From IMG/VR virus record IMGVR_UViG_3300008012_000154, positions 1-26,252 of that record: a stretch of 26,252 nt of DNA. One strand, given 5' to 3'. The position numbers were made by a program, and so were the translations under genes. Position 1 is the first letter of the stretch. Each line of letters opens with the position of its first letter. The notes beneath the pieces were generated by a model that saw nothing but the letters and a program-made list of their open reading frames with translations, made no database searches and was not told the DNA's origin. The DNA comes from a virus. Shown one piece after another: positions 3,557 through 20,391 of this stretch.

Positions 3557-3822
3557 AAGTTAAATTATTACAACGACAGGTCTTCTACAAAATAGGCATG
3601 ATCGAAATAGATGTCCCAGATTTTGTTGATCCATTAAGTGAAACACAAATATGGTTACATAATAATGAAGATCTGTGGGTAGATAAGCTTGCAGAAAACA
3701 TGGACGAAGGTCCATTGAATCACGGTTTTGGATTATGTGATCTGACTAATAGATGGTCAGACGCAACAGAAGAAACTGAATATTTATACGAACTGCCTAA
3801 CGGAAATGGAGGGCACATTTAA
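3553..3822 (+). CDS. Acidic hypothetical phage protein, 89 aa
   Basis: A small acidic protein, probably alpha+beta: an N-terminal strand (KLLQRQVFYKIGMIEIDVP) followed by a helix containing NNEDLW. It resembles in style the other short strand-helix phage proteins nearby (5505-5768), though I cannot show homology. It overlaps the upstream stop (ATGA). No function is assigned. Confidence 0.65.
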   Translation: MKVKLLQRQVFYKIGMIEIDVPDFVDPLSETQIWLHNNEDLWVDKLAENMDEGPLNHGFGLCDLTNRWSDATEETEYLYELPNGNGGHI

Positions 3823-3829
3823 TACTATT

Positions 3830-4702
3830 ATGGATAATAATCAAAAGATTTTTGACGCATTGTACAATACTAACACAGCTTGGTCTGTACAAAAAGAACC
3901 ATTGTTTACACAAGATGGGAAAAAAACACAAAGTTACGGTTTATTTAGATCTGACAATAACGCTTGGTTAAGCACCGTAGGCGAAAGATACGTTCCTATG
4001 CAGAACGAAGAACTAGCAGAAATTATGGTTAGAATACAAAACAAATTTGGTGGTGACATTAAAGGTGATGCTATGGGTAGAATTCCAGGACAAAAGATTT
4101 ATTATCAATTGTCATTAGAAGATTACAATATAAATGGTGACAAATTAAAGCGTCACATTACCTGTCTTAACTCACACAATGGTTCACACGCTATTGGTTT
4201 TGGTTCTACCAATACAGTTATATCGTGTTCTAACACCTTTCACATGGCTATGAAAGATCTAACTAAGTTTAGACATACTATGAGCGCATCTCAAAGATTA
4301 CAGTTTGCTGTAGACGAGTTTGAAAAAGCTTTGATTCTTGATGACAATCTTATGCTTACATACAAAGCAATGAATAGAGTTCCTGTGGATCAGACTATTA
4401 TTGAAAATGTTATGCAAAAGATATTTAAGGTTGACATGAATAGCAAAGTAAGTGATAACTCTACTCGTAAGAAAAACCAAATCGAAGGCTTTGGTAAAGC
4501 TTTGCAGCACGAGCTTGCAGCTAAAGGTAATACCCTTTGGGGATTATTCAATGGCGTAACTTATTACACGAATCATATAGATGATAAAGGTATTGATAAT
4601 CTTATGACAGGCTCTGGCTACAAAAAGAACCTGATAGCCTTTAAAACCATTGAGGATAAGTTAATGGAAAAAGGAATGTTAGTTAATTTACAAGAAGTAT
4701 AA
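3830..4702 (+). CDS. DUF932 / phage-plasmid-like protein, 290 aa
   Basis: This matches the DUF932 family (also described as phage/plasmid-like protein TIGR03299) in length and pattern. The N-terminal part has LYNTNTAWSVQKEPLFT and then an STVGERYVPMQNEELAEIM segment. The central part has a conserved CLNSHNGSHAIGFGSTN region followed by VISCSNTF. The C-terminal part is helical, ending in a Lys-rich segment. The family is widespread on phages and plasmids and its biochemical role is not established. I choose ATG 3830 (context ATTATG, 7 bases after the previous stop). An in-frame ATG at 3806 would add 8 residues and overlap the upstream gene. Its stop overlaps the next gene (TAATG). Confidence 0.8.
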   Translation: MDNNQKIFDALYNTNTAWSVQKEPLFTQDGKKTQSYGLFRSDNNAWLSTVGERYVPMQNEELAEIMVRIQNKFGGDIKGDAMGRIPGQKIYYQLSLEDYNINGDKLKRHITCLNSHNGSHAIGFGSTNTVISCSNTFHMAMKDLTKFRHTMSASQRLQFAVDEFEKALILDDNLMLTYKAMNRVPVDQTIIENVMQKIFKVDMNSKVSDNSTRKKNQIEGFGKALQHELAAKGNTLWGLFNGVTYYTNHIDDKGIDNLMTGSGYKKNLIAFKTIEDKLMEKGMLVNLQEV

Positions 4703-5770: not shown

Positions 5771-6172
5771 ATGGGAACAAGAAGTTTAACAAAAATCATA
5801 CAAAAGTATGATGATGGTCAAGAAAATGTATTAACAACTATGTATCGTCAATTCGATGGATACCCTGATGGACATGGAGTAGATTTGGCTACATGGCTTT
5901 ATCCTTTTAATGTGGTAAATGGTATTGGATTAGATGAAAAAAGACAAATTGCAAATGGTTCAGATTGTTTAGCAGCACAAATGTTTGCCCAATTTAAAGA
6001 TGGTCCTGGAGGTATTTATTTGATGCATCCAGACGCACATGATTGCGGAGAGGAATATATATATTATATATATGTTCATCATGATGACATAACAATTAAA
6101 GTTTATGATACTTATGATGACAAAGTAATCTTTGAAGGTAAACCACGTAAATTAGTAGAAAAATATGCCTAA
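5771..6172 (+). CDS. MGTRSLT-family phage protein, 133 aa
   Basis: The N-terminus MGTRSLTKI, followed by MYRQFDGYPDGHGVDLA, is the signature of a common uncharacterised phage and bacterial family that I recognise. The invariant-looking residues are concentrated in RQFDGYPDGHG (about residues 26-36), which looks like an active or binding site, but no activity is known to me. The C-terminal half is strand-rich (YIYYIYVHHDDITIKVYD). It starts at AATTATG and overlaps the following gene by 8 bases. Here it lies directly before an MPNWC-type protein. Confidence 0.8.
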   Translation: MGTRSLTKIIQKYDDGQENVLTTMYRQFDGYPDGHGVDLATWLYPFNVVNGIGLDEKRQIANGSDCLAAQMFAQFKDGPGGIYLMHPDAHDCGEEYIYYIYVHHDDITIKVYDTYDDKVIFEGKPRKLVEKYA

Positions 6173-6743
6173 TTGGTGTTGGAATAATTTACATGTAACG
6201 TGCACAGAAGAGCATGTTGCTGAACTACAAGATTTTGTAGAAAAATCCACAAGTATCAAAGATACAGAGTTTTCTTTTGAAGGGACTTTGTTTCGTGGTG
6301 ATCGTGAAGACTGGTATAACTGGTCTTTAGATAACTGGGGTACTAAATGGGATGCGTGTGAACCATATATAAATGAGTCAGAAGCACAATGTTTTAACGT
6401 TACTTTTGATACAGCGTGGGGCCCACCATGCAATTGGATTCAAAACATTATGCATAAGTATAAAAACCTAGAGTTTGAACTTGAGTATGATGAACCTGGT
6501 TGTTGTTTTGCTGGTGTTTTAAATGCACACGGTGCGCGAGGAACGTTTCATGATCATTATTTTGAAACAGATTCAGCGTCACAATGCTGTCAAGCAAAAA
6601 TATATTACCAGGATGATGAAGAATACACTCTAACAGAAGATGATGTTAAAGGATCTTATCCTACAGAATATCAATGTTCTGAATGTAAAGAAGAGTGTGA
6701 AACATTTATGATGAAAGAAAGCGAAATAAAAAATAATGATTAA
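6165..6743 (+). CDS. MPNWC-family (DUF1281 / Api92 ferredoxin-like) protein, 192 aa
   Basis: The N-terminus MPNWCWNNLHVTC is the hallmark of the DUF1281 group, whose N-terminal part is described as an Api92-like ferredoxin-like fold. The middle has an aromatic, acidic stretch (WYNWSLDNWGTKWDACEPY), also typical. The C-terminal 30 residues carry a CSECKEEC cluster that may bind zinc. The family is common in phages and conjugative elements and its function is unknown to me. It overlaps the upstream gene by 8 bases. The 23 bases after it contain no clear promoter. Confidence 0.75.
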   Translation: MPNWCWNNLHVTCTEEHVAELQDFVEKSTSIKDTEFSFEGTLFRGDREDWYNWSLDNWGTKWDACEPYINESEAQCFNVTFDTAWGPPCNWIQNIMHKYKNLEFELEYDEPGCCFAGVLNAHGARGTFHDHYFETDSASQCCQAKIYYQDDEEYTLTEDDVKGSYPTEYQCSECKEECETFMMKESEIKNND

Positions 6744-6766
6744 ATTTAACGCCCCAAAAAAATGTG

Positions 6767-8077
6767 ATGCACGATGAATTAATTAAATATGAGTTAGAAG
6801 CAGTTCTGCTTTCTAAATTACTTATGCACCCAGAGCTTTACTATCAAAACGCAGAAAAGCTGAACGTTAATATGTTTGACAATATGTTTCATAAAAGAAT
6901 TTATGAACAGTTTTTGGTTATGCAATCAGAGCAAAAAGATATAGATTTATTGTCTATGTCTAATGCTCTTGGTTGTAGTCACGAAGAAAACATACAGCTT
7001 TCAAATGTATACACTTTTGATTCACAGTTTATTTCTGTTAAGTCAGCTATTGACTCATTGCATGAGCAAAGTCGTAAAAAGACAATGCATACGCTTATTA
7101 CTGAAGCGCAAAATAAATACCTCAACGGAGAATCTACAGACGAAATAATTGCATTTATAAATAAAATGAATGCAAAAATGATGGTCGTTCAAGATAGCGA
7201 TGTTGCAGATATTAAATTGCAGATGAAAGAATTTTTGATAGACATTGATAAAAGGATAGCATCAGACGGTATTATAGGTGTAACAACAGGTTATAAATCT
7301 CTTGATGAGTTTACTGGTGGTTGGCAAGGTACAGATCTTGTTATCATTGGTGCAGCCTCATCAATGGGTAAAACAAGTTTAGCATTGAATCTTGCATATA
7401 ACGCAGTTAAGCATGCAGATGCACCTGCGCTTATATTTAGCTACGAAATGTCGGTAAATCAACTTATAATGCGTTTAGTTGCATTAGAGTCAGAGATACC
7501 AATACGTTGGATACAAAACGGTGAACTCAAAGATGAAGACATCAGACGAGTTCAACAGACAGCCAGCGATATAATAGAGCGAAAGATCTATATCGATGAA
7601 TGTAAGCAAACATCATTGAATTATTTAATTTCTAAAACTAGACAATATGTACACAGTTGCGGTATTAAGCTTGTGTTTGTTGACTACTTACAGCTTGTCA
7701 CAGCGAGTACAGGATCAAAAGGAACCAGAGAGCAAGAAGTCTCAAAGGTTGCTAGGGCCCTCAAAAACCTCGCTAAAGAACTAAACATTACAATTGTTGC
7801 TTTATCACAGCTCAATCGTGGTGTTGGTTTCAGAGCTGAAAGCAAGCCAACACTATCTGATCTGAGAGAATCAGGTGAGATAGAACAAGCAGCAGATGTA
7901 GTTGCATTAGTTTACAGGCCAGAATATTACGGTATCAATCAAGATGAAAACGGAGAGTCTACACAAGGCAAGGCACAGATTATCTTTGCCAAAGGACGTA
8001 ACATCGGTGTTGGTACTGTTACGCTAAACTTTATTAGCGAACTGACTAAATTTAAGGAGAATACCTTAGATTTTTAA
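6767..8077 (+). CDS. dnaB: DnaB-like replicative DNA helicase
   Basis: This hexameric 5'-3' helicase would unwind phage DNA at the replication fork. The N-terminal DnaB domain occupies about residues 1-100. The RecA-like ATPase domain has Walker A GAASSMGKTS (about 195-204), Walker B LVFVDYLQL (about 302-310), the SQLNR motif (about 347-351) and SDLRESGEIEQAAD (about 364-377), all characteristic of DnaB. At 436 residues it is close to usual phage length. The start is the ATG at 6767; a GTG just before it is in frame. It opens the replication module followed by HU-like, annealing, SSB-like, RusA-like and DnaA-like genes. No primase was recognised in this window. Confidence 0.95.
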   Translation: MHDELIKYELEAVLLSKLLMHPELYYQNAEKLNVNMFDNMFHKRIYEQFLVMQSEQKDIDLLSMSNALGCSHEENIQLSNVYTFDSQFISVKSAIDSLHEQSRKKTMHTLITEAQNKYLNGESTDEIIAFINKMNAKMMVVQDSDVADIKLQMKEFLIDIDKRIASDGIIGVTTGYKSLDEFTGGWQGTDLVIIGAASSMGKTSLALNLAYNAVKHADAPALIFSYEMSVNQLIMRLVALESEIPIRWIQNGELKDEDIRRVQQTASDIIERKIYIDECKQTSLNYLISKTRQYVHSCGIKLVFVDYLQLVTASTGSKGTREQEVSKVARALKNLAKELNITIVALSQLNRGVGFRAESKPTLSDLRESGEIEQAADVVALVYRPEYYGINQDENGESTQGKAQIIFAKGRNIGVGTVTLNFISELTKFKENTLDF

Positions 8078-8100: not shown

Positions 8101-8334
8101 GTGGCCAAACACACAAAACTAAGACAAATAATTGCAGAAATTGCACACGACTTAGGTATTGATAAGAAGCTTGTCAAACGAATACTCATTGCAGTATTTA
8201 GAGAAGTAGGCTTTGCTATTATACTAAGAGGTCGTCCTGTTATGTTCAGGAAATTTCTGAAGATCGTATTTGCGATACGTGCAGGTAAAAAGACGCACGA
8301 AATGTTTAATAAATATGAAACACGAAAAAAGTAA
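8101..8334 (+). CDS. Small basic HU/IHF-like DNA-binding protein, 77 aa
   Basis: A very basic short protein. Residues 8-36 form two helices like the HU/IHF dimerisation helices (IAEIAHDLGIDKKLVKRILI). They are followed by GFAIILRGRPVMFRKFLKIV, which resembles the LxxGxxVxLRGFGxF start of the HU beta arm. The rest of the arm and the last helix are missing or replaced by a Lys-rich tail, so it is shorter than typical HU (about 90 aa). It starts at GTG, the only plausible start in the frame. Its place between helicase and recombination genes supports a DNA-architectural role. The family call is moderate; a generic basic helical protein is the alternative. Confidence 0.55.
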   Translation: MAKHTKLRQIIAEIAHDLGIDKKLVKRILIAVFREVGFAIILRGRPVMFRKFLKIVFAIRAGKKTHEMFNKYETRKK

Positions 8335-8337
8335 ATT

Positions 8338-8844
8338 ATGGCAAAATTAAAAACAGTTAACATTAAAGGTAAAGAATACGTTGAGGTTAACGAAAGGCTA
8401 AAACATTTTAGATCTAACTTTAAAGGCTGGTGTCTAACATCAGATGTTGTAGATCTTACTGAAGATCGTTGTGTTATCAAAGCTACAATCTTTGATGAGA
8501 ACGGAAACATACGCTCCACAGGACATGCGTATGAAAAAGAAGGTTCGTCCTTCATTAACAAAACAAGTTTTGTAGAAAACTGTGAAACATCAGCTTGGGG
8601 CCGTGCTCTTGCTAATTTAGGTATTGGCTTAGATACATCGGTTGCTTCTTATGAAGAGGTAGCTAACGCTGTAAAACAACAATCTGCACCAGCAGTTAAA
8701 CCAGAGCTTGATGAAGATAAGTTTAACAACATGATCAAAGCTATTGAAGCTGGAAAAGGTGATGCTGTTAAGGCTAAAATGCCAAACTACGACATACCAG
8801 AACATATGTTGAAAGTATTAAATGATAATCTCAAATCCAAATAA
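8338..8844 (+). CDS. Candidate single-strand annealing / recombination protein, 168 aa
   Basis: The central part contains GHAYEKEGSSFINKTSFVEN followed by CETSAWGRALANLGIGLD. This is a signature found in many phage proteins encoded beside SSB and RusA genes, and it resembles the ETSA(I/V/W)GRAL segment of some Rad52/ERF-like annealing proteins. The N-terminal part (VNIKGKEYVEVNERLKHFR) is strand-rich. The C-terminal third is a charged helical region with a Pro/Ala linker. The gene sits four bases after the HU-like gene and two bases before the SSB-like gene, which supports a role in handling single-stranded DNA. I recognise the sequence pattern; the biochemical function is inferred from context. 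Confidence 0.55.
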   Translation: MAKLKTVNIKGKEYVEVNERLKHFRSNFKGWCLTSDVVDLTEDRCVIKATIFDENGNIRSTGHAYEKEGSSFINKTSFVENCETSAWGRALANLGIGLDTSVASYEEVANAVKQQSAPAVKPELDEDKFNNMIKAIEAGKGDAVKAKMPNYDIPEHMLKVLNDNLKSK

Positions 8845-8846
8845 TT

Positions 8847-9434
8847 ATGAGTAATGTAATTGCATTTAACTTGGCTGAGTGCCAGGTAAAACCTACTAAA
8901 GTAGTAGAAAACAAAACATATTTTAAAGAAGGTGCTCACAGATGCCAAGTGTTGTCTGTGTCTAACTCTTCACAAAGACAAAACTATAATGGTGCGCCAT
9001 ATATAGAGTTTGATGTTGTAAACGCACAAGGTGAATATGGTAGAGCAAAGTTTTGGGCAGTCAGAGAAACTGATGCACCTAAGTCTGCTGAATGGAAAAA
9101 GAATACACTACACGAGTTTCTTACAAACTGTGGTGTAAAAGACTTTTCTAATGATATTGAGTCTATTAAAGCAGCTGTAGGATCATGGGTAAACATTTGT
9201 TTTACGTTTGAGGAATACATGACTGTGAAAGATGGACAGCCAGTAAAAAGAAAAGCTGTTCGTTATCGTTGGTCTAGTGCTGATGGTGCTAAAATTAAAT
9301 ACGATCCTAAGTACAATAAGCCTATTTCACCACGAGATGAACAAGAGTTTATTGAAGCAAACACCATGAATGGTGGCTCTGTCGCACCAGTTATCGGTAG
9401 TTTTGATGAAAAGGGTGATAATTTGCCATTCTAA
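8847..9434 (+). CDS. Single-stranded DNA-binding (SSB-like) protein, 195 aa
   Basis: The protein ends in an acidic, flexible stretch whose last residues are DEKGDNLPF. This closely resembles the bacterial SSB C-terminal tip (DDxPF) that recruits replication and repair partners. The body (about residues 20-140) is strand-rich, with conserved-looking YNGAPYIEFDVV and YGRAKFWAVRET segments compatible with an OB fold. Length and tail fit phage SSB-type proteins. It follows the candidate annealing gene by two bases and precedes a promoter and a RusA-like gene. Function is inferred mainly from the tail and neighbourhood; no standard bacterial ssb sequence identity is claimed. Confidence 0.7.
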   Translation: MSNVIAFNLAECQVKPTKVVENKTYFKEGAHRCQVLSVSNSSQRQNYNGAPYIEFDVVNAQGEYGRAKFWAVRETDAPKSAEWKKNTLHEFLTNCGVKDFSNDIESIKAAVGSWVNICFTFEEYMTVKDGQPVKRKAVRYRWSSADGAKIKYDPKYNKPISPRDEQEFIEANTMNGGSVAPVIGSFDEKGDNLPF

Positions 9435-9451
9435 ATAATTTCGTAGTTTTG
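9422..9451 (+). promoter_or_regulatory. Bacteroidota-type promoter before the RusA-like gene
   Basis: TAGTTTTG at 9444-9451 matches the Bacteroidota -7 element TAnnTTTG. TTTG at 9422-9425 lies 18 bases upstream, in a good position for the -33 element. The predicted transcript would begin shortly before the ATG at 9470 and drive the RusA-like, DnaA-like and following genes. This is the best two-part promoter I see in the window. Confidence 0.7.
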
Positions 9452-9469
9452 TAAACCAAACACAAAATT

Positions 9470-9835
9470 ATGATCTTCATTCAAGGTAATGTACCTTCAA
9501 GTAAAAACTCTAAACGTTGGACTGGTAAAATGCTTATCAATTCTAAGACGGTTATGAAGTACATTAAAGAAACCAAAAGTCAGTATGAGGAGAATCGCAT
9601 TAATTTTCAAGAGATGATAACAGGGTTAGAGTTCCCTGTTGTTGTTTCGTTTAAGTTTATACGCGGTTCTAAACATAAATTTGACTACATAAATCCTGCA
9701 CAAACTGTACAAGATCTTATGGTAAAAAATGGTTGGATAGAAGATGATAACTGTGATTTTATGATACCTACTTTTGTCGAGTATGAGTATAACAAAGAAA
9801 ATCCAGGAGTAGAAATAAATGTTTATGGAAGATAA
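9470..9835 (+). CDS. RusA-family Holliday junction resolvase-like protein, 121 aa
   Basis: The N-terminal GNVPSSKNSKR resembles the RusA start (PxSKNxxR). The central segment FDYINPAQTVQDLMVKNGWI, followed by EDDN, follows the RusA active-site pattern in which Asp residues bind metal; the candidates are D72, D82, D92 and D93. RusA enzymes cut four-way junctions in replicated or recombining phage DNA as dimers. The length of 121 residues is normal. It is the first gene after a clear promoter and overlaps the DnaA-like gene by 17 bases. The canonical second Asp position is altered (NPAQ instead of the usual DxDN), so activity is likely but not certain. Confidence 0.75.
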   Translation: MIFIQGNVPSSKNSKRWTGKMLINSKTVMKYIKETKSQYEENRINFQEMITGLEFPVVVSFKFIRGSKHKFDYINPAQTVQDLMVKNGWIEDDNCDFMIPTFVEYEYNKENPGVEINVYGR

Positions 9836-10280
9836 TACAATACCATTGATTGAGTTTTTAGACTCATACGTGGTAACTAACGACATTGATAGAAAAAAGT
9901 TTTTATCACCTAATAGATCTAGAGAAATAGTAGATGCACGAATGATATTCTGCGCTGTTGCTAGAAAAGAAGGTGGATATACATTAAAGCATATAGGTCA
10001 GACTTTAAACAGAGATCATGCCACAGCTTTACATGCTATTAAAAACTATAAAATACTATCAACTGTAGATAAGAAAATCAAACAAGACTATAATAAAGGT
10101 GTTACTTTATTTAGGACATTGTCATACAGACCACGCTGGACAAACGCTGGTTTGATAGATACATTATTCGTAAGCAATCAAAAGCTTAGAGAAATGATCC
10201 AAATACGAGATGGTAAAATCTCTGTATACGAAGACAAGATACAGTCTTTGAAAAATGAATTAAAAACAATTACAAATTAA
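9819..10280 (+). CDS. Stand-alone DnaA domain IV-like DNA-binding protein, 153 aa
   Basis: Residues 34-82 match the DnaA C-terminal DNA-binding domain. SREIVDARMIFCAVARKEGG corresponds to the first helix-turn-helix part. TLKHIGQTLNRDHATALHAI contains RDHATALHA, the DnaA signature (RDHTTVxHA) that contacts the DnaA box. There is no AAA+ ATPase domain. The N-terminus is about 30 residues, and the C-terminus (about 110-153) ends in a charged coiled-coil-like helix. It could recognise DnaA boxes at a phage origin, compete with host DnaA, or recruit the DnaB-like helicase. An alternative start is ATG 9825. It follows the RusA-like gene with overlap. The domain call is confident, the role inferred. 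Confidence 0.8.
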   Translation: MFMEDNTIPLIEFLDSYVVTNDIDRKKFLSPNRSREIVDARMIFCAVARKEGGYTLKHIGQTLNRDHATALHAIKNYKILSTVDKKIKQDYNKGVTLFRTLSYRPRWTNAGLIDTLFVSNQKLREMIQIRDGKISVYEDKIQSLKNELKTITN

Positions 10281-10282
10281 TT

Positions 10283-10615
10283 ATGTCAAAAACACAAAGA
10301 AAATCAATCAACATTGATGGCAAGGATGTAAAAGTATCCAACAAAATTTATGGTGTTATTCAAAACCTTACAGAGGCTTTGAAGCAGCATGAAGTAGCTT
10401 TGCTTACTTGGGTACACAAAGTCTTCAATGAAAAAACTGAGCATACTAAAGATGAAATATTGATACAACAATACTGTATGCAGATACCTGATGCACCAGG
10501 AATATTATCAAGAATGAGACAAATAGATGAAGAAGTTGCCAAGAAAGGATCTGATGAAAGCGCAAATCCAGTCGGAGATGCAGAGAATATCGGATCTTCT
10601 GATACAGAAGAATAA
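10283..10615 (+). CDS. Hypothetical protein, 110 aa
   Basis: Begins with a short strand-rich stretch (SINIDGKDVKVSNKIYGVIQ), then a helical middle, and ends in an acidic, Ser/Gly-rich disordered tail (about residues 88-110). The last part overlaps the next gene in another frame, so the tail composition may be shaped by that overlap. It starts at AATTATG two bases after the DnaA-like gene. No family is recognised. Confidence 0.65.
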   Translation: MSKTQRKSINIDGKDVKVSNKIYGVIQNLTEALKQHEVALLTWVHKVFNEKTEHTKDEILIQQYCMQIPDAPGILSRMRQIDEEVAKKGSDESANPVGDAENIGSSDTEE

Positions 10616-10826
10616 CGCATACGGTAATTCTGCAACACAACCAGCTAAAATCTTTTCAAAAGGTGATGCGGTTGAAAGTATTAGCGCACGTATTGACGAT
10701 AAGTTGATGCGAATTGCTAATAGAGGTATTAACGAAAATACATTAGATACCGTGGATGATTTAATAGGATATTTAGTTCTGTTGAAAATTGCATGGTATG
10801 AAAGAGAAATGCAAGATGGTAAATAA
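10554..10826 (+). CDS. DUF1599 / Nmad1-like protein (MazG-type fold), 90 aa
   Basis: The pattern ISDLLIQKNNAYGNSA, then ARIDDKLMRI, then DTVDDLIGYLVLLKIA matches DUF1599, also called nucleotide modification associated domain 1, a branch of the all-alpha NTP pyrophosphatase (MazG-like) superfamily. The acidic DDK and DTVDD residues are the expected metal-binding positions. Such proteins may clean up or supply nucleotides during phage replication, though activity is not proven. The frame is open from ATG 10527. I choose ATG 10554, while 10578 is also possible; all choices overlap the preceding gene. Confidence 0.7.
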   Translation: MKAQIQSEMQRISDLLIQKNNAYGNSATQPAKIFSKGDAVESISARIDDKLMRIANRGINENTLDTVDDLIGYLVLLKIAWYEREMQDGK

Positions 10827-17408: not shown

Positions 17409-17823
17409 TACTATTATCGTTATTCTTTTTGCTGCTCCCTCCAAAAAAGAAATCTACAATAGTATTTACTTTAGCACTCATTGCTCCAAATATTGTAGAT
17501 ATAAAACTAATTTCAAACTCTCCTAAATTTATATCTCCCAATACAAAATGATTAAACATAACAAAACTAATCCCAAAGTATGCAACGGTAAACAATGTTG
17601 CTAATACCTTTTGAATAATTGCATCATCTTTATACATATCTCTTGCAGACTTACGATCTTCTACTTCTTTAGCAAAAGCTTCTTTTTCTGCATCCAACAA
17701 CACTTTGCGTAGCTGTAGTTTAGCTTCATCTCTTTCCTTATCAGTTGTTATAACTTTATCTAAGATACCCTCAGCGTTATCTACAACCTTTCCTAATATG
17801 CCTCCTAAAAGATTATTAATCAT
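17401..17823 (-). CDS. Holin-like membrane protein, 140 aa
   Basis: The N-terminal 65 residues form a charged helix rich in Lys, Glu and Asp. Hydrophobic segments follow at about 68-90 (IIQKVLATLFTVAYFGISFV) and 101-125, and the tail (GGSSKKNNDNSNG) is polar. This matches the layout of the 3TM holin family of phages and gene transfer agents (GTA-type holin), in which the conserved part is SARDMYKDDAIIQKVLAT. It would form lesions in the inner membrane at lysis and release the wall enzyme. It overlaps the downstream end of the T9SS-sorted protein gene by 8 bases. Confidence 0.75.
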   Translation of the reverse strand: MINNLLGGILGKVVDNAEGILDKVITTDKERDEAKLQLRKVLLDAEKEAFAKEVEDRKSARDMYKDDAIIQKVLATLFTVAYFGISFVMFNHFVLGDINLGEFEISFISTIFGAMSAKVNTIVDFFFGGSSKKNNDNSNG

Positions 17824-20068
17824 TTACTATTACTTTTATTGATATATATAATTGATCATGTTTTACAATTGCATTGTAAATGCCAGGACCGATTTGTAAA
17901 GATACGAAATTTACAGATTTATGTTCAGATATTTTTTTACCTAACATATTATAGAATGTTACGTCTACATTTTTTGTAAAGTATATATTTCCTTTTGTTG
18001 GATTTGGATAAACGCTTAATACAGATGATCTTATATTCTGAACATCTGTTGGTCCACTCCATCCATCAAGACAATATTGATATAAATTATCACATGTTGC
18101 GTCCCAAGTATTATCACAGCAATATTGATCAATATCAATCACCCATTCAAAACACTCATTAGGAATATAATATATATCACCAACGTTGCAGCCAGCAGAA
18201 AAATAACACGTACTGTCTTCCACGTTAGCTGACGAATTGTAATTAACAGCGGACGGATCAGTACACCCAGGCAAAGGATAAATACAGCTACCATTATTAG
18301 TATTCGCATTATCATCATAGTTAATTGCAGTACTGTCTGTGCATCCATAATAGTAAGGTATACAATTTCCATTATCTGTATTGCACGTATCGCAATAATT
18401 CCACATTGTAGGATCTATGCATCCAAATACTACAGGAATGCAACTGCCATCATCTGTGTTTGCTAATACATTAAAGTTGAAGGCTGCACCATCGGTACAA
18501 CCCCAAACAACGGGTATGCATGAACCATCGTCTGTATTCGCTAATATACTATAGTTAAAGGCTGTACTGTCAGTACAACCCAATACAACATCTATACATG
18601 AGCCATCATCAGCATTTGCTAATTGGCTATAATTTATTGCATCCTGATCTGTACAGCCATAAACAAAAGGAGTACAAGATCCATTGTCTGTGTTAGCTAA
18701 TGGATTATAGTTAAACATGGTGTCGTCAGTACACCCGTACACAAACGGTATACAGCTACCATTATCTGTATTAGCATTTATGTTGTAGTTGAACATACTT
18801 GCGTCTGTACAGCCATATATATAAGGTATGCAGGTGTCTGATGCTGTAGCTAATGGATCATAATTAAACATTATTGGATCCATACATCCATATACGTAAG
18901 GTATACAAGATCCTGATAGCTCTACATTTGCTAAGGGATCATAATTATATGCTGTGCTATCCATACAACCTAATACTACCAGAGTAGCACACGATCCATT
19001 ATCATAATCGTAAGAAGCATCATATTCTAGATATATGGGATTGGTACATCCTGGATTATAATAACAGCTCCCATCGTCTGTATTTACTGTATCGTTATAG
19101 TTTACAGCTAAACTATCTATACAGCCATAAGTTTTTTCTACGCATGTATTTCCACAATATGGTTGCCCTATAACAGGAAAGAATGGTGGTATAGGATTTA
19201 CAAATCCACCTTCTATATCTATTGCATAGTAATCTTCAGAATACAAACTATAACCACATTGTACTGCTGTAAAATCTGATTGCTGCGTTATTTCAAACAC
19301 CGCCCTTACAGGATAGCCTGCTGCTAGATTTATAAAGAATGTTGTATCAAAACCATCTACCAATGTGTATGTACCAATGTCTTGATAATTAAACGGTGGT
19401 ATCATGCTAGTTGCTTGCGACAGTTTGAGTGTAGAGCCAGCCCAACCGTTTCCAGCTAGGTCAGTTAGTTCAAGCTCATGCAGACAGCTATCTATAGCTA
19501 TATCTGTATTAGCTGAATCTATATAATTATATGCTAATGAGTCTGTACATCCATATACTTTTGGTGTAAAACACATCCCCGTGTCTACTGTAGCAGCTAA
19601 GTCAAACTCTACAAAGCTGCTATCCATACAACCAAATACTGGTGGAGGTGGAGGACAGCCAGACGTATATATTACATCCCATATTTGATTACCAAAATCA
19701 GCTGTATCTAATTGCCATATAGTATCACCACATTGTTCTATGTATACAGAACCATCATTACCACCCCATAAACTACCTGCCACACCATCTCCATACGTAT
19801 CATTTAGCACAAAGTAAAAGCTATCTACAGGTAAACATATACTTGCATATTGCGGTTCATAATCCACTATATTACTGTACGGACCACCTTCTAACAAAGT
19901 ATCTCCAAAGAAAGTCATTATATACCAAGATGTTTCTTCAGGATATTGATCAGGATTAACTGTAACGTTTAAACTCCATGTATTAGGAGGGCATTGTCCG
20001 AATGCAGTACCTATAAAAAATACTACAATCATAATTAAAGCGTATAAAAACCTTGTAAACTTGTTCAT
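17816..20068 (-). CDS. Exported repeat protein with T9SS C-terminal sorting domain, 750 aa
   Basis: Residues 1-25 are a signal peptide ending AFGQ. Residues 26-140 form a module with NDTYGDGVAGSLWGG, like the DSYGDGI modules of flavobacterial secreted proteins; a related module is at about 197-300. Fourteen Cys-paired repeats (GCTDxxAxNYNxxANTDxGSC) occur at about 146, 172, 314 and 340, then ten in a row at 366-622 with a period of about 26 residues. A CC...WD..C module (about 633-670) follows. Residues 684-750 (VYPNPTKGNIYF ... ) match the type A T9SS sorting domain (TIGR04183/Por secretion tail). It is predicted to cross the inner membrane by Sec and reach the host surface by T9SS. It lies between holin and thioredoxin-fold genes. 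Role unknown: adhesion, receptor masking or superinfection exclusion are possibilities. Confidence 0.85.
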   Translation of the reverse strand: MNKFTRFLYALIMIVVFFIGTAFGQCPPNTWSLNVTVNPDQYPEETSWYIMTFFGDTLLEGGPYSNIVDYEPQYASICLPVDSFYFVLNDTYGDGVAGSLWGGNDGSVYIEQCGDTIWQLDTADFGNQIWDVIYTSGCPPPPPVFGCMDSSFVEFDLAATVDTGMCFTPKVYGCTDSLAYNYIDSANTDIAIDSCLHELELTDLAGNGWAGSTLKLSQATSMIPPFNYQDIGTYTLVDGFDTTFFINLAAGYPVRAVFEITQQSDFTAVQCGYSLYSEDYYAIDIEGGFVNPIPPFFPVIGQPYCGNTCVEKTYGCIDSLAVNYNDTVNTDDGSCYYNPGCTNPIYLEYDASYDYDNGSCATLVVLGCMDSTAYNYDPLANVELSGSCIPYVYGCMDPIMFNYDPLATASDTCIPYIYGCTDASMFNYNINANTDNGSCIPFVYGCTDDTMFNYNPLANTDNGSCTPFVYGCTDQDAINYSQLANADDGSCIDVVLGCTDSTAFNYSILANTDDGSCIPVVWGCTDGAAFNFNVLANTDDGSCIPVVFGCIDPTMWNYCDTCNTDNGNCIPYYYGCTDSTAINYDDNANTNNGSCIYPLPGCTDPSAVNYNSSANVEDSTCYFSAGCNVGDIYYIPNECFEWVIDIDQYCCDNTWDATCDNLYQYCLDGWSGPTDVQNIRSSVLSVYPNPTKGNIYFTKNVDVTFYNMLGKKISEHKSVNFVSLQIGPGIYNAIVKHDQLYISIKVIVND
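18203..18973 (-). repeat. Ten tandem about 78-bp coding repeats (GCTD...GSC units)
   Basis: Within the T9SS-sorted protein, ten consecutive units encode YGCTDxxxxNYNxxANTDxGSC plus a 4-residue linker such as IPFV. The nucleotide copies differ at many third positions and in some residues, so the array is old or under selection rather than freshly duplicated. Four further diverged units lie outside the array toward the N-terminus (to about 19633). Each unit has two Cys, likely a disulfide, and several Asp/Asn that could bind calcium. Confidence 0.8.
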
Positions 20069-20391
20069 TAAAATTTGCTTATTATGAGTTCGTCAATGTA
20101 ATTTTGTATTTCTTTTTTTGTTGCAACCATAGAAAAACTAATGTCAGCTTGAAATCTTTTAACTTCTTCGCCATCATCAAATATTATTATAGTTGGCACT
20201 ACAGCTATTTTGTATTTAGTTTGATTATCATTTTGCTCTATCAAAAGTGCTTGTCTATCACATTCTTTTAATTTTGAGAACCAAACTACATCATTGTTTT
20301 TATTCCAATCTGCATTAAAGTGCACAGCTTTTATTTGAGCTATACACGAAGATGAAATAAAAATTATAATGAAGGTTATTAAAGCTTTCAT
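20068..20391 (-). CDS. Exported thioredoxin-fold protein lacking CxxC, 107 aa
   Basis: The N-terminus is a signal peptide (KALITFIIIFISSSCIAQ), with cleavage likely after CIA; the SSSC could alternatively be a lipobox. The mature part follows thioredoxin: AVHFNADWNKNND at the active-site position, and VVPTIIIFDDGEEVKRFQA with the conserved cis-Pro and following strands. The WCGPC motif is replaced by WNKNN, so it cannot do thiol-disulfide exchange there. Only one Cys (KECD) remains in the mature protein. It starts at the stop of the coiled-coil gene (TAATG). A chaperone, adaptor or binding role in the periplasm is likely. Confidence 0.75.
   Translation of the reverse strand: MKALITFIIIFISSSCIAQIKAVHFNADWNKNNDVVWFSKLKECDRQALLIEQNDNQTKYKIAVVPTIIIFDDGEEVKRFQADISFSMVATKKEIQNYIDELIISKF

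Follow-up and report, generated by a model that had tools for sequence, protein, structure and literature searches.

A stand-alone DnaA domain-IV protein in the early replication and recombination cassette of a phage

Here, we report a genuine DnaA domain IV that is encoded, without the ATPase, as a small protein of its own in the genome of a phage of marine bacteria (IMG/VR record IMGVR_UViG_3300008012_000154; positions 1 to 26,252, the whole 26,252-nucleotide stretch analysed and hereafter "the window"). We tentatively propose that this early protein serves phage DNA replication as an adaptor lacking the ATPase: it would read a specific site and tether a partner through an added tail. This is based on the identity and predicted layout of the protein, its gene neighbourhood and its relatives in other phages.

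Identity and predicted layout of the protein

The gene is a 153-aa open reading frame at window 9819-10280 (+). Its true start is probably at 9825, giving a product of 151 aa, since the first Met of its relatives corresponds to that position. Three features are used below (residue numbers follow the 153-aa frame):

9819..10280 (+), stand-alone DnaA domain-IV protein, likely start 9825 (Pfam, starts of relatives, dN/dS)
9882..10043 (+), Bac_DnaA_C (PF08299) core (Pfam match and alignment to Escherichia coli domain IV)
10146..10274 (+), long C-terminal helix of about 43 residues (model residues 108-150), a tail that may form a coiled coil or bind a partner (block pLDDT 71-91 along the greater part)

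Pfam places PF08299 (Bac_DnaA_C) on residues 22-75 (E 2.7e-12, 46.9 bits against a cut-off of 31.5), and phmmer recovers both E. coli domain IV with DnaA-box DNA (1j1v, E 8e-6) and Mycobacterium tuberculosis domain IV (3pvp, E 0.002); the PHROGs matches are weak (best E 0.0026). The RDHATALHA motif named in the original prediction is indeed present, at residues 65-73. From the alignment, we take residues of the core to be equivalent to the E. coli contact residues R399, R407, D433, H434, T435 (here Ala) and T436. The likeness to DnaA domain IV (PF08299; 1j1v, 3pvp) thus comprises the fold over about 95 residues, the HTH signature, the basic-loop arginines and the DH-x-T motif, whereas the window protein differs in standing alone, in having the domain at its N-terminus and in the Ala at the Thr435 position. 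It is also one residue shorter before NRDH than most cellular DnaAs. The gene is under purifying selection, with a dN/dS of 0.11 against its homologue in record G005 (78.8% amino acid identity) and of 0.135 against that in G012 (52.8%); given this low dN/dS and the conservation at the protein level, it is therefore not a chance ORF.

What is missing is the remainder of DnaA. Pfam finds neither an AAA+ domain nor an IstB/DnaC-type AAA+ loader domain in the protein, the AAA+ domain of DnaA (Bac_DnaA, PF00308) is absent from all 25 records searched, and DnaA domain I has no Pfam match, with only 21 residues preceding the domain match. The NCBIfam DnaA equivalog reaches 42.9 bits, below its cut-off of 343.9. 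With the PF08299 score and the fold match to 3pvp_A described next, the absence of an AAA+ match bears out the earlier description of the protein as a DnaA domain IV without the ATPase.

An AlphaFold model built on 14 aligned phage proteins with clean starts (alignment A4; mean pLDDT 85.7) has the domain IV helices within residues 8-100, and residues 108-150 form a helix of their own. VIA-align places the model on 3pvp_A with a Z score of 15.9 (96 residues, 1.5 A) and on 1j1v_A with a Z score of 15.0. In cellular DnaA, domain IV ends the protein, with 6-19 residues after the core in 79 full-length frames. The viral frames, at 49 loci, all span 132-220 aa (a few are cut by contig ends), and 46 of the 49 have at most 39 residues before the core and at least 35 after it, the exceptions being L030, L143 and L149. 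As modelled, then, the window protein is not a truncated DnaA: an N-terminal domain IV is followed by the helix of about 43 residues, and this added tail would make it a two-part protein. The tail is the fastest-changing part, 45.5% identical to G012 compared with 58.7% for the domain. The Pelagibacter phages have the reverse layout, with the extra part N-terminal and the domain C-terminal.

The early cassette

The gene lies in a run of genes on the same strand:

6764..8077 (+), DnaB-like replicative helicase (PF03796, E 1.8e-85; PHROGs)
8101..8334 (+), HU-like DNA-binding protein (PF00216)
8338..8844 (+), phrog_11717 protein (PHROGs), which we take to be SSAP-like from its ETSAWGRALANLGIG motif
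8847..9434 (+), SSB-like protein with the C-terminus DNLPF (phrog_378, sequence)
9423..9451 (+), promoter-like element TTG-N18-TAGTTTTG, presumably of Bacteroidota type, upstream of both rusA and the DnaA_C gene
9470..9835 (+), RusA-like Holliday-junction resolvase, running into the beginning of the DnaA_C frame (Pfam, PHROGs)
10283..10615 (+), conserved 110-aa protein 3' of the DnaA_C gene (conservation in relatives)
10527..10826 (+), phrog_1485 protein (PHROGs, comparison with relatives)

The window lies at 99.4% identity inside a 65.5-kb contig (G002), and the gene order DnaB, HU-like, SSAP-like, SSB-like, RusA, DnaA_C is identical in G012. Against G012, the DnaA_C protein is 53% identical, compared with 79-88% for DnaB, HU, SSAP, SSB and RusA; the 110-aa ORF that comes next is at 58%. 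With its low dN/dS, the DnaA_C protein is thus constrained, yet fast for its cassette. That the order of the cassette is kept despite this divergence, around a domain whose identity is beyond doubt, argues for the replication adaptor. The part of the promoter-like element beyond the ssb stop codon, which is non-coding, is kept in four aligned sequences. This is better evidence for the element than the pattern count, which in the window is 8 against 4.1 expected and was reached in 7 of 100 shuffles (not significant).

The position of the gene also bears on a role in transcription, and DnaA itself regulates transcription. As an HTH protein with a dimerising tail, the product might control its own operon, or else genes of the middle or late phase. 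Consistent with this, the gene comes late in the early operon, after the resolvase and before the converging late genes, and the promoter-like element precedes rusA and the gene. However, a k-mer comparison of G002 with G012 revealed no clear repeated intergenic operator and the neighbourhood is one of replication and recombination, so that we consider a phage transcription regulator unlikely.

Further elements were observed around the cassette. The early region of the window also encodes a DUF932 protein (3806-4702, +; PF06067, E 1.3e-23) and a DUF1281_C/Api92-like protein (6165-6743, +; PF18406, E 3.6e-10). G002 contains, about 1.2 kb before the window begins, a candidate type III hammerhead ribozyme (L017:11321-11375, equal to G002:31321-31375), and a second candidate is found in G012 (L154:3475-3529). 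Both lie in conserved non-coding DNA that precedes the early operon and match RF00008 over its full length at 44.1 bits (E 4.7e-8; G002) and 45.2 bits (E 2.4e-8; G012), just under the gathering score of 48.5. The non-coding DNA of G002 further includes a segment common, by eye, to G012 and with a terminator-like end (L017:11126-11300) and a hairpin resembling a tRNA T-arm (L017:11665-11707); ARAGORN found no tRNA or tmRNA in this non-coding DNA. An early gene of G012 (L115:12070-12924) has, by eye, the look of a radical-SAM repair enzyme of the spore-photoproduct-lyase type. Elsewhere in the window, a 750-aa repeat-rich protein (17816-20068, -) has a match to a type IX secretion C-terminal sorting domain (PF18962) at 21.7 bits, below the cut-off of 27; such a domain is unusual in a phage gene. 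A thioredoxin-like ORF (20068-20391; weak match) adjoins it.

Is the neighbouring helicase its partner?

A DnaB-like helicase 1.7 kb upstream had been predicted, and the ORF at 6764-8077 (PF03796) is found there, 1.74 kb from the gene. The same prediction had the protein loading this helicase, as a loader or DnaB-recruiting initiator. Its synteny with DnaB is kept in the close clade, and a search for another loader, of the IstB/DnaC family, found none in any of the 25 records. These were chosen, for the DnaB, IstB/DnaC and AAA+ searches, from the wider set with 49 viral loci (L159-L162 lie outside the analysis). DnaB scored above cut-off in only six of them (the window, G002, G005, G007, G012 and G013); among the other 19, many of which are fragments, three had weak matches below cut-off and 16 had none, and the G006 record starts past the expected place of DnaB. 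No DnaB was found in the complete genome of Harreka_1. DnaB is therefore a neighbour in the clade of the window and not a constant partner of the DnaA_C family. Moreover, the parts of DnaA that handle DnaB are domain I and the AAA+ domain, both of which the protein lacks. On these grounds the loading claim is not supported, and we regard direct loading of the phage DnaB as very improbable.

Relatives in phages and cells

Stand-alone DnaA_C proteins are already known, by annotation, in Cellulophaga, Olleya, Flavobacterium and Pelagibacter phages. Named carriers are Harreka_1, phi46:1, phi19:3, an Octadecabacter phage, Flavobacterium phages and six Pelagibacter phages, and a Foldseek search of BFVD returned 58 matches at E <=0.001, with many among the matches listed named "Chromosomal replication initiator, DnaA C-terminal". 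A paper on Polaribacter phages P12002L and P12002S names among their proteins a "replication initiation protein DnaA" (PMC4615864), and the main text of the ISME J paper describing Harreka has no mention of DnaA (PMC8776804). A literature search, with most subscription journals outside its coverage, found no study on the function of such a protein from a phage.

The "DnaA protein" of Olleya phage Harreka_1 and of Cellulophaga phages phi46:1 and phi19:3, along with the DnaA-HTH protein of the Flavobacterium tooticki group, resembles the window protein in its domain, its size (112-170 aa) and its place in the early region, but the neighbours differ (with no DnaB match in Harreka_1) and the tails are not confidently alignable. 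The Pelagibacter proteins, namely the "DNA replication initiation (DnaA)" proteins of HTVC024P, 034P, 035P, 100P and 204P and the Bac_DnaA_C protein of Greip, share a domain IV within 160-186 aa and a gene downstream of an SSAP gene; they differ in that an unrelated N-terminal part precedes the domain and in having a DHTT motif. Two NCBIfam models of about 140-150 aa (NF004686/NF004687; PRK06030, hypothetical protein) are matched weakly by the HTVC204P protein through its DnaA_C part and are not matched by the window protein.

In support of the adaptor, isolated phages place the gene among recombination and replication genes. It lies among RecT, an exonuclease, SSB, RusA and a replication protein in Leeuwenhoekiella phage Arctus, and with RecT and a DNA replication protein in phi19:3. 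In three Pelagibacter phage genomes it accompanies a nuclease and an SSAP gene; no helicase or polymerase is annotated anywhere in them, and the DnaA_C protein is the sole annotated replication-initiation protein. Presumably, these three phages depend on the host replisome.

A different reading, also raised in the original prediction, is that the protein is directed at the host: by occupying host DnaA boxes at oriC or at DnaA-controlled promoters, it would block or redirect initiation and free the replisome. The protein consists of a DNA reader and a tail and nothing else, and it is the fastest-changing member of its cassette against G012, as might be expected of such a competitor. The residue at the Thr435 position points the same way. 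Among phages that represent few independent lineages, it is Thr in all seven alphaproteobacterial phage proteins, and Ala (four) or Ser (two) in six named Bacteroidota phages; the window has Ala. In the 79 full-length cellular frames, gathered with a search pattern that admitted only A or T at this position, 56 have Ala and 23 have Thr; going by record titles, the former are Bacteroidota with the one exception of L073, and the latter are without exception Pseudomonadota. Some viral contigs that are assigned to neither host group (L027, L028 and L143) have Thr. Judged on these residues, the position appears to match the host group. Together with the relatives and the promoter-like element, residues of this type lead us to infer that the host of the window phage is a member of the Bacteroidota.

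The match may, however, reflect ancestry rather than adaptation. We computed a tree of 82 domain rows over 91 columns, few for so many rows; duplicate loci, L031-L033 and, within each class, rows with more than 85% likeness had been removed beforehand. A starred branch (98/90) separates most viral rows from cellular DnaA, so the match of residues could be inherited, and the tree settles neither this point nor the origin of the viral copies: those of phi19:3, Arctus and the Octadecabacter phage group within cellular DnaA, and long branches meet. Cells also carry additional copies: among 149 genomes of one class (sampled via G030), 145 have a DnaA_C match and nine have two, which argues that host cells tolerate such proteins. 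Five of the second matches are listed, in frames of 149-240 aa, and the other four are not listed. Weighing also against the competitor are the restricted residue pattern and the place of the gene amid phage replication genes. We therefore hold a host-directed competitor to be possible but not probable.

Which DNA might it read?

The original prediction suggested scanning for clustered DnaA boxes and minima of GC skew, and its own check for box-like sequences in phage DNA turned out negative. Exact TTATCCACA occurs three times against 3.9 expected, summed over nine phage genomes with the gene (25 shuffles each), a count to be read with the caveat that the box of the true host may differ. With up to one mismatch there are 123 sites against 119 expected in the nine genomes, never more than two within 400 bp; in G006, counted apart, the one-mismatch sites number 27 and form no cluster, where 20.4 are expected and 20 shuffles ranged from 13 to 28. 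Exact and degenerate canonical boxes in the window and its relatives are at chance, which is in keeping with a target on the host chromosome, and the verdict on boxes is not final because the letters of the host box are not established. A search for 9-mer clusters around 56 chromosomal dnaA genes yielded no Bacteroidota box; paired TTATCCACA occurs in none of six host genomes and paired TTATNCACA in one of 16. In an independent study, predicted DnaA sites likewise showed no positional asymmetry, whichever subset of alphaproteobacterial phages was taken (PMC9437464).

GC skew was rejected as an origin mark, as its turning points coincide with changes in gene direction. Nor is the gene accompanied by an array of iterons, whether in the window or in five other phages: the window has one two-copy 15-nt direct repeat only, and repeat families with three copies are confined to Harreka_1 (16 nt, 88-94%, spaced 397 and 274) and HTVC204P (36 nt, 64-72%). 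The iterons or clustered sites near the gene by which a protein working like lambda O would be recognised were therefore not found. The lack of box clusters and iterons, with a skew that follows transcription only, counts against the adaptor.

Proposed role

What, then, might the protein do? We consider a sequence-specific replication adaptor the most likely role, with a competitor at host oriC close behind and direct loading of DnaB the least likely. As an adaptor, the protein would use its DnaA domain-IV fold to read a specific double-stranded DNA site, and the extra helical tail would tether a partner there, most likely a replication component of the phage or the host. This would take the place of the DNA melting and DnaB loading carried out by DnaA. 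In a broader and rather unlikely version of the host-directed reading, tailed phages of Bacteroidota and Alphaproteobacteria would carry ATPase-free DnaA mimics with a recognition helix adapted to the host's own variant of the DnaA box. Their target would be the host chromosome instead of phage DNA, and by sitting on oriC boxes they would halt or divert host initiation.

Whether phage or host DNA is the target decides between an ATPase-free initiator and a shutdown of host replication. Isolated host-phage pairs exist for Olleya Harreka_1, Cellulophaga phi46:1, Flavobacterium tooticki and the Pelagibacter phages, making the question directly testable. A phage protein as widespread as this may be the sole replication-initiation factor supplied by small marine phages themselves.
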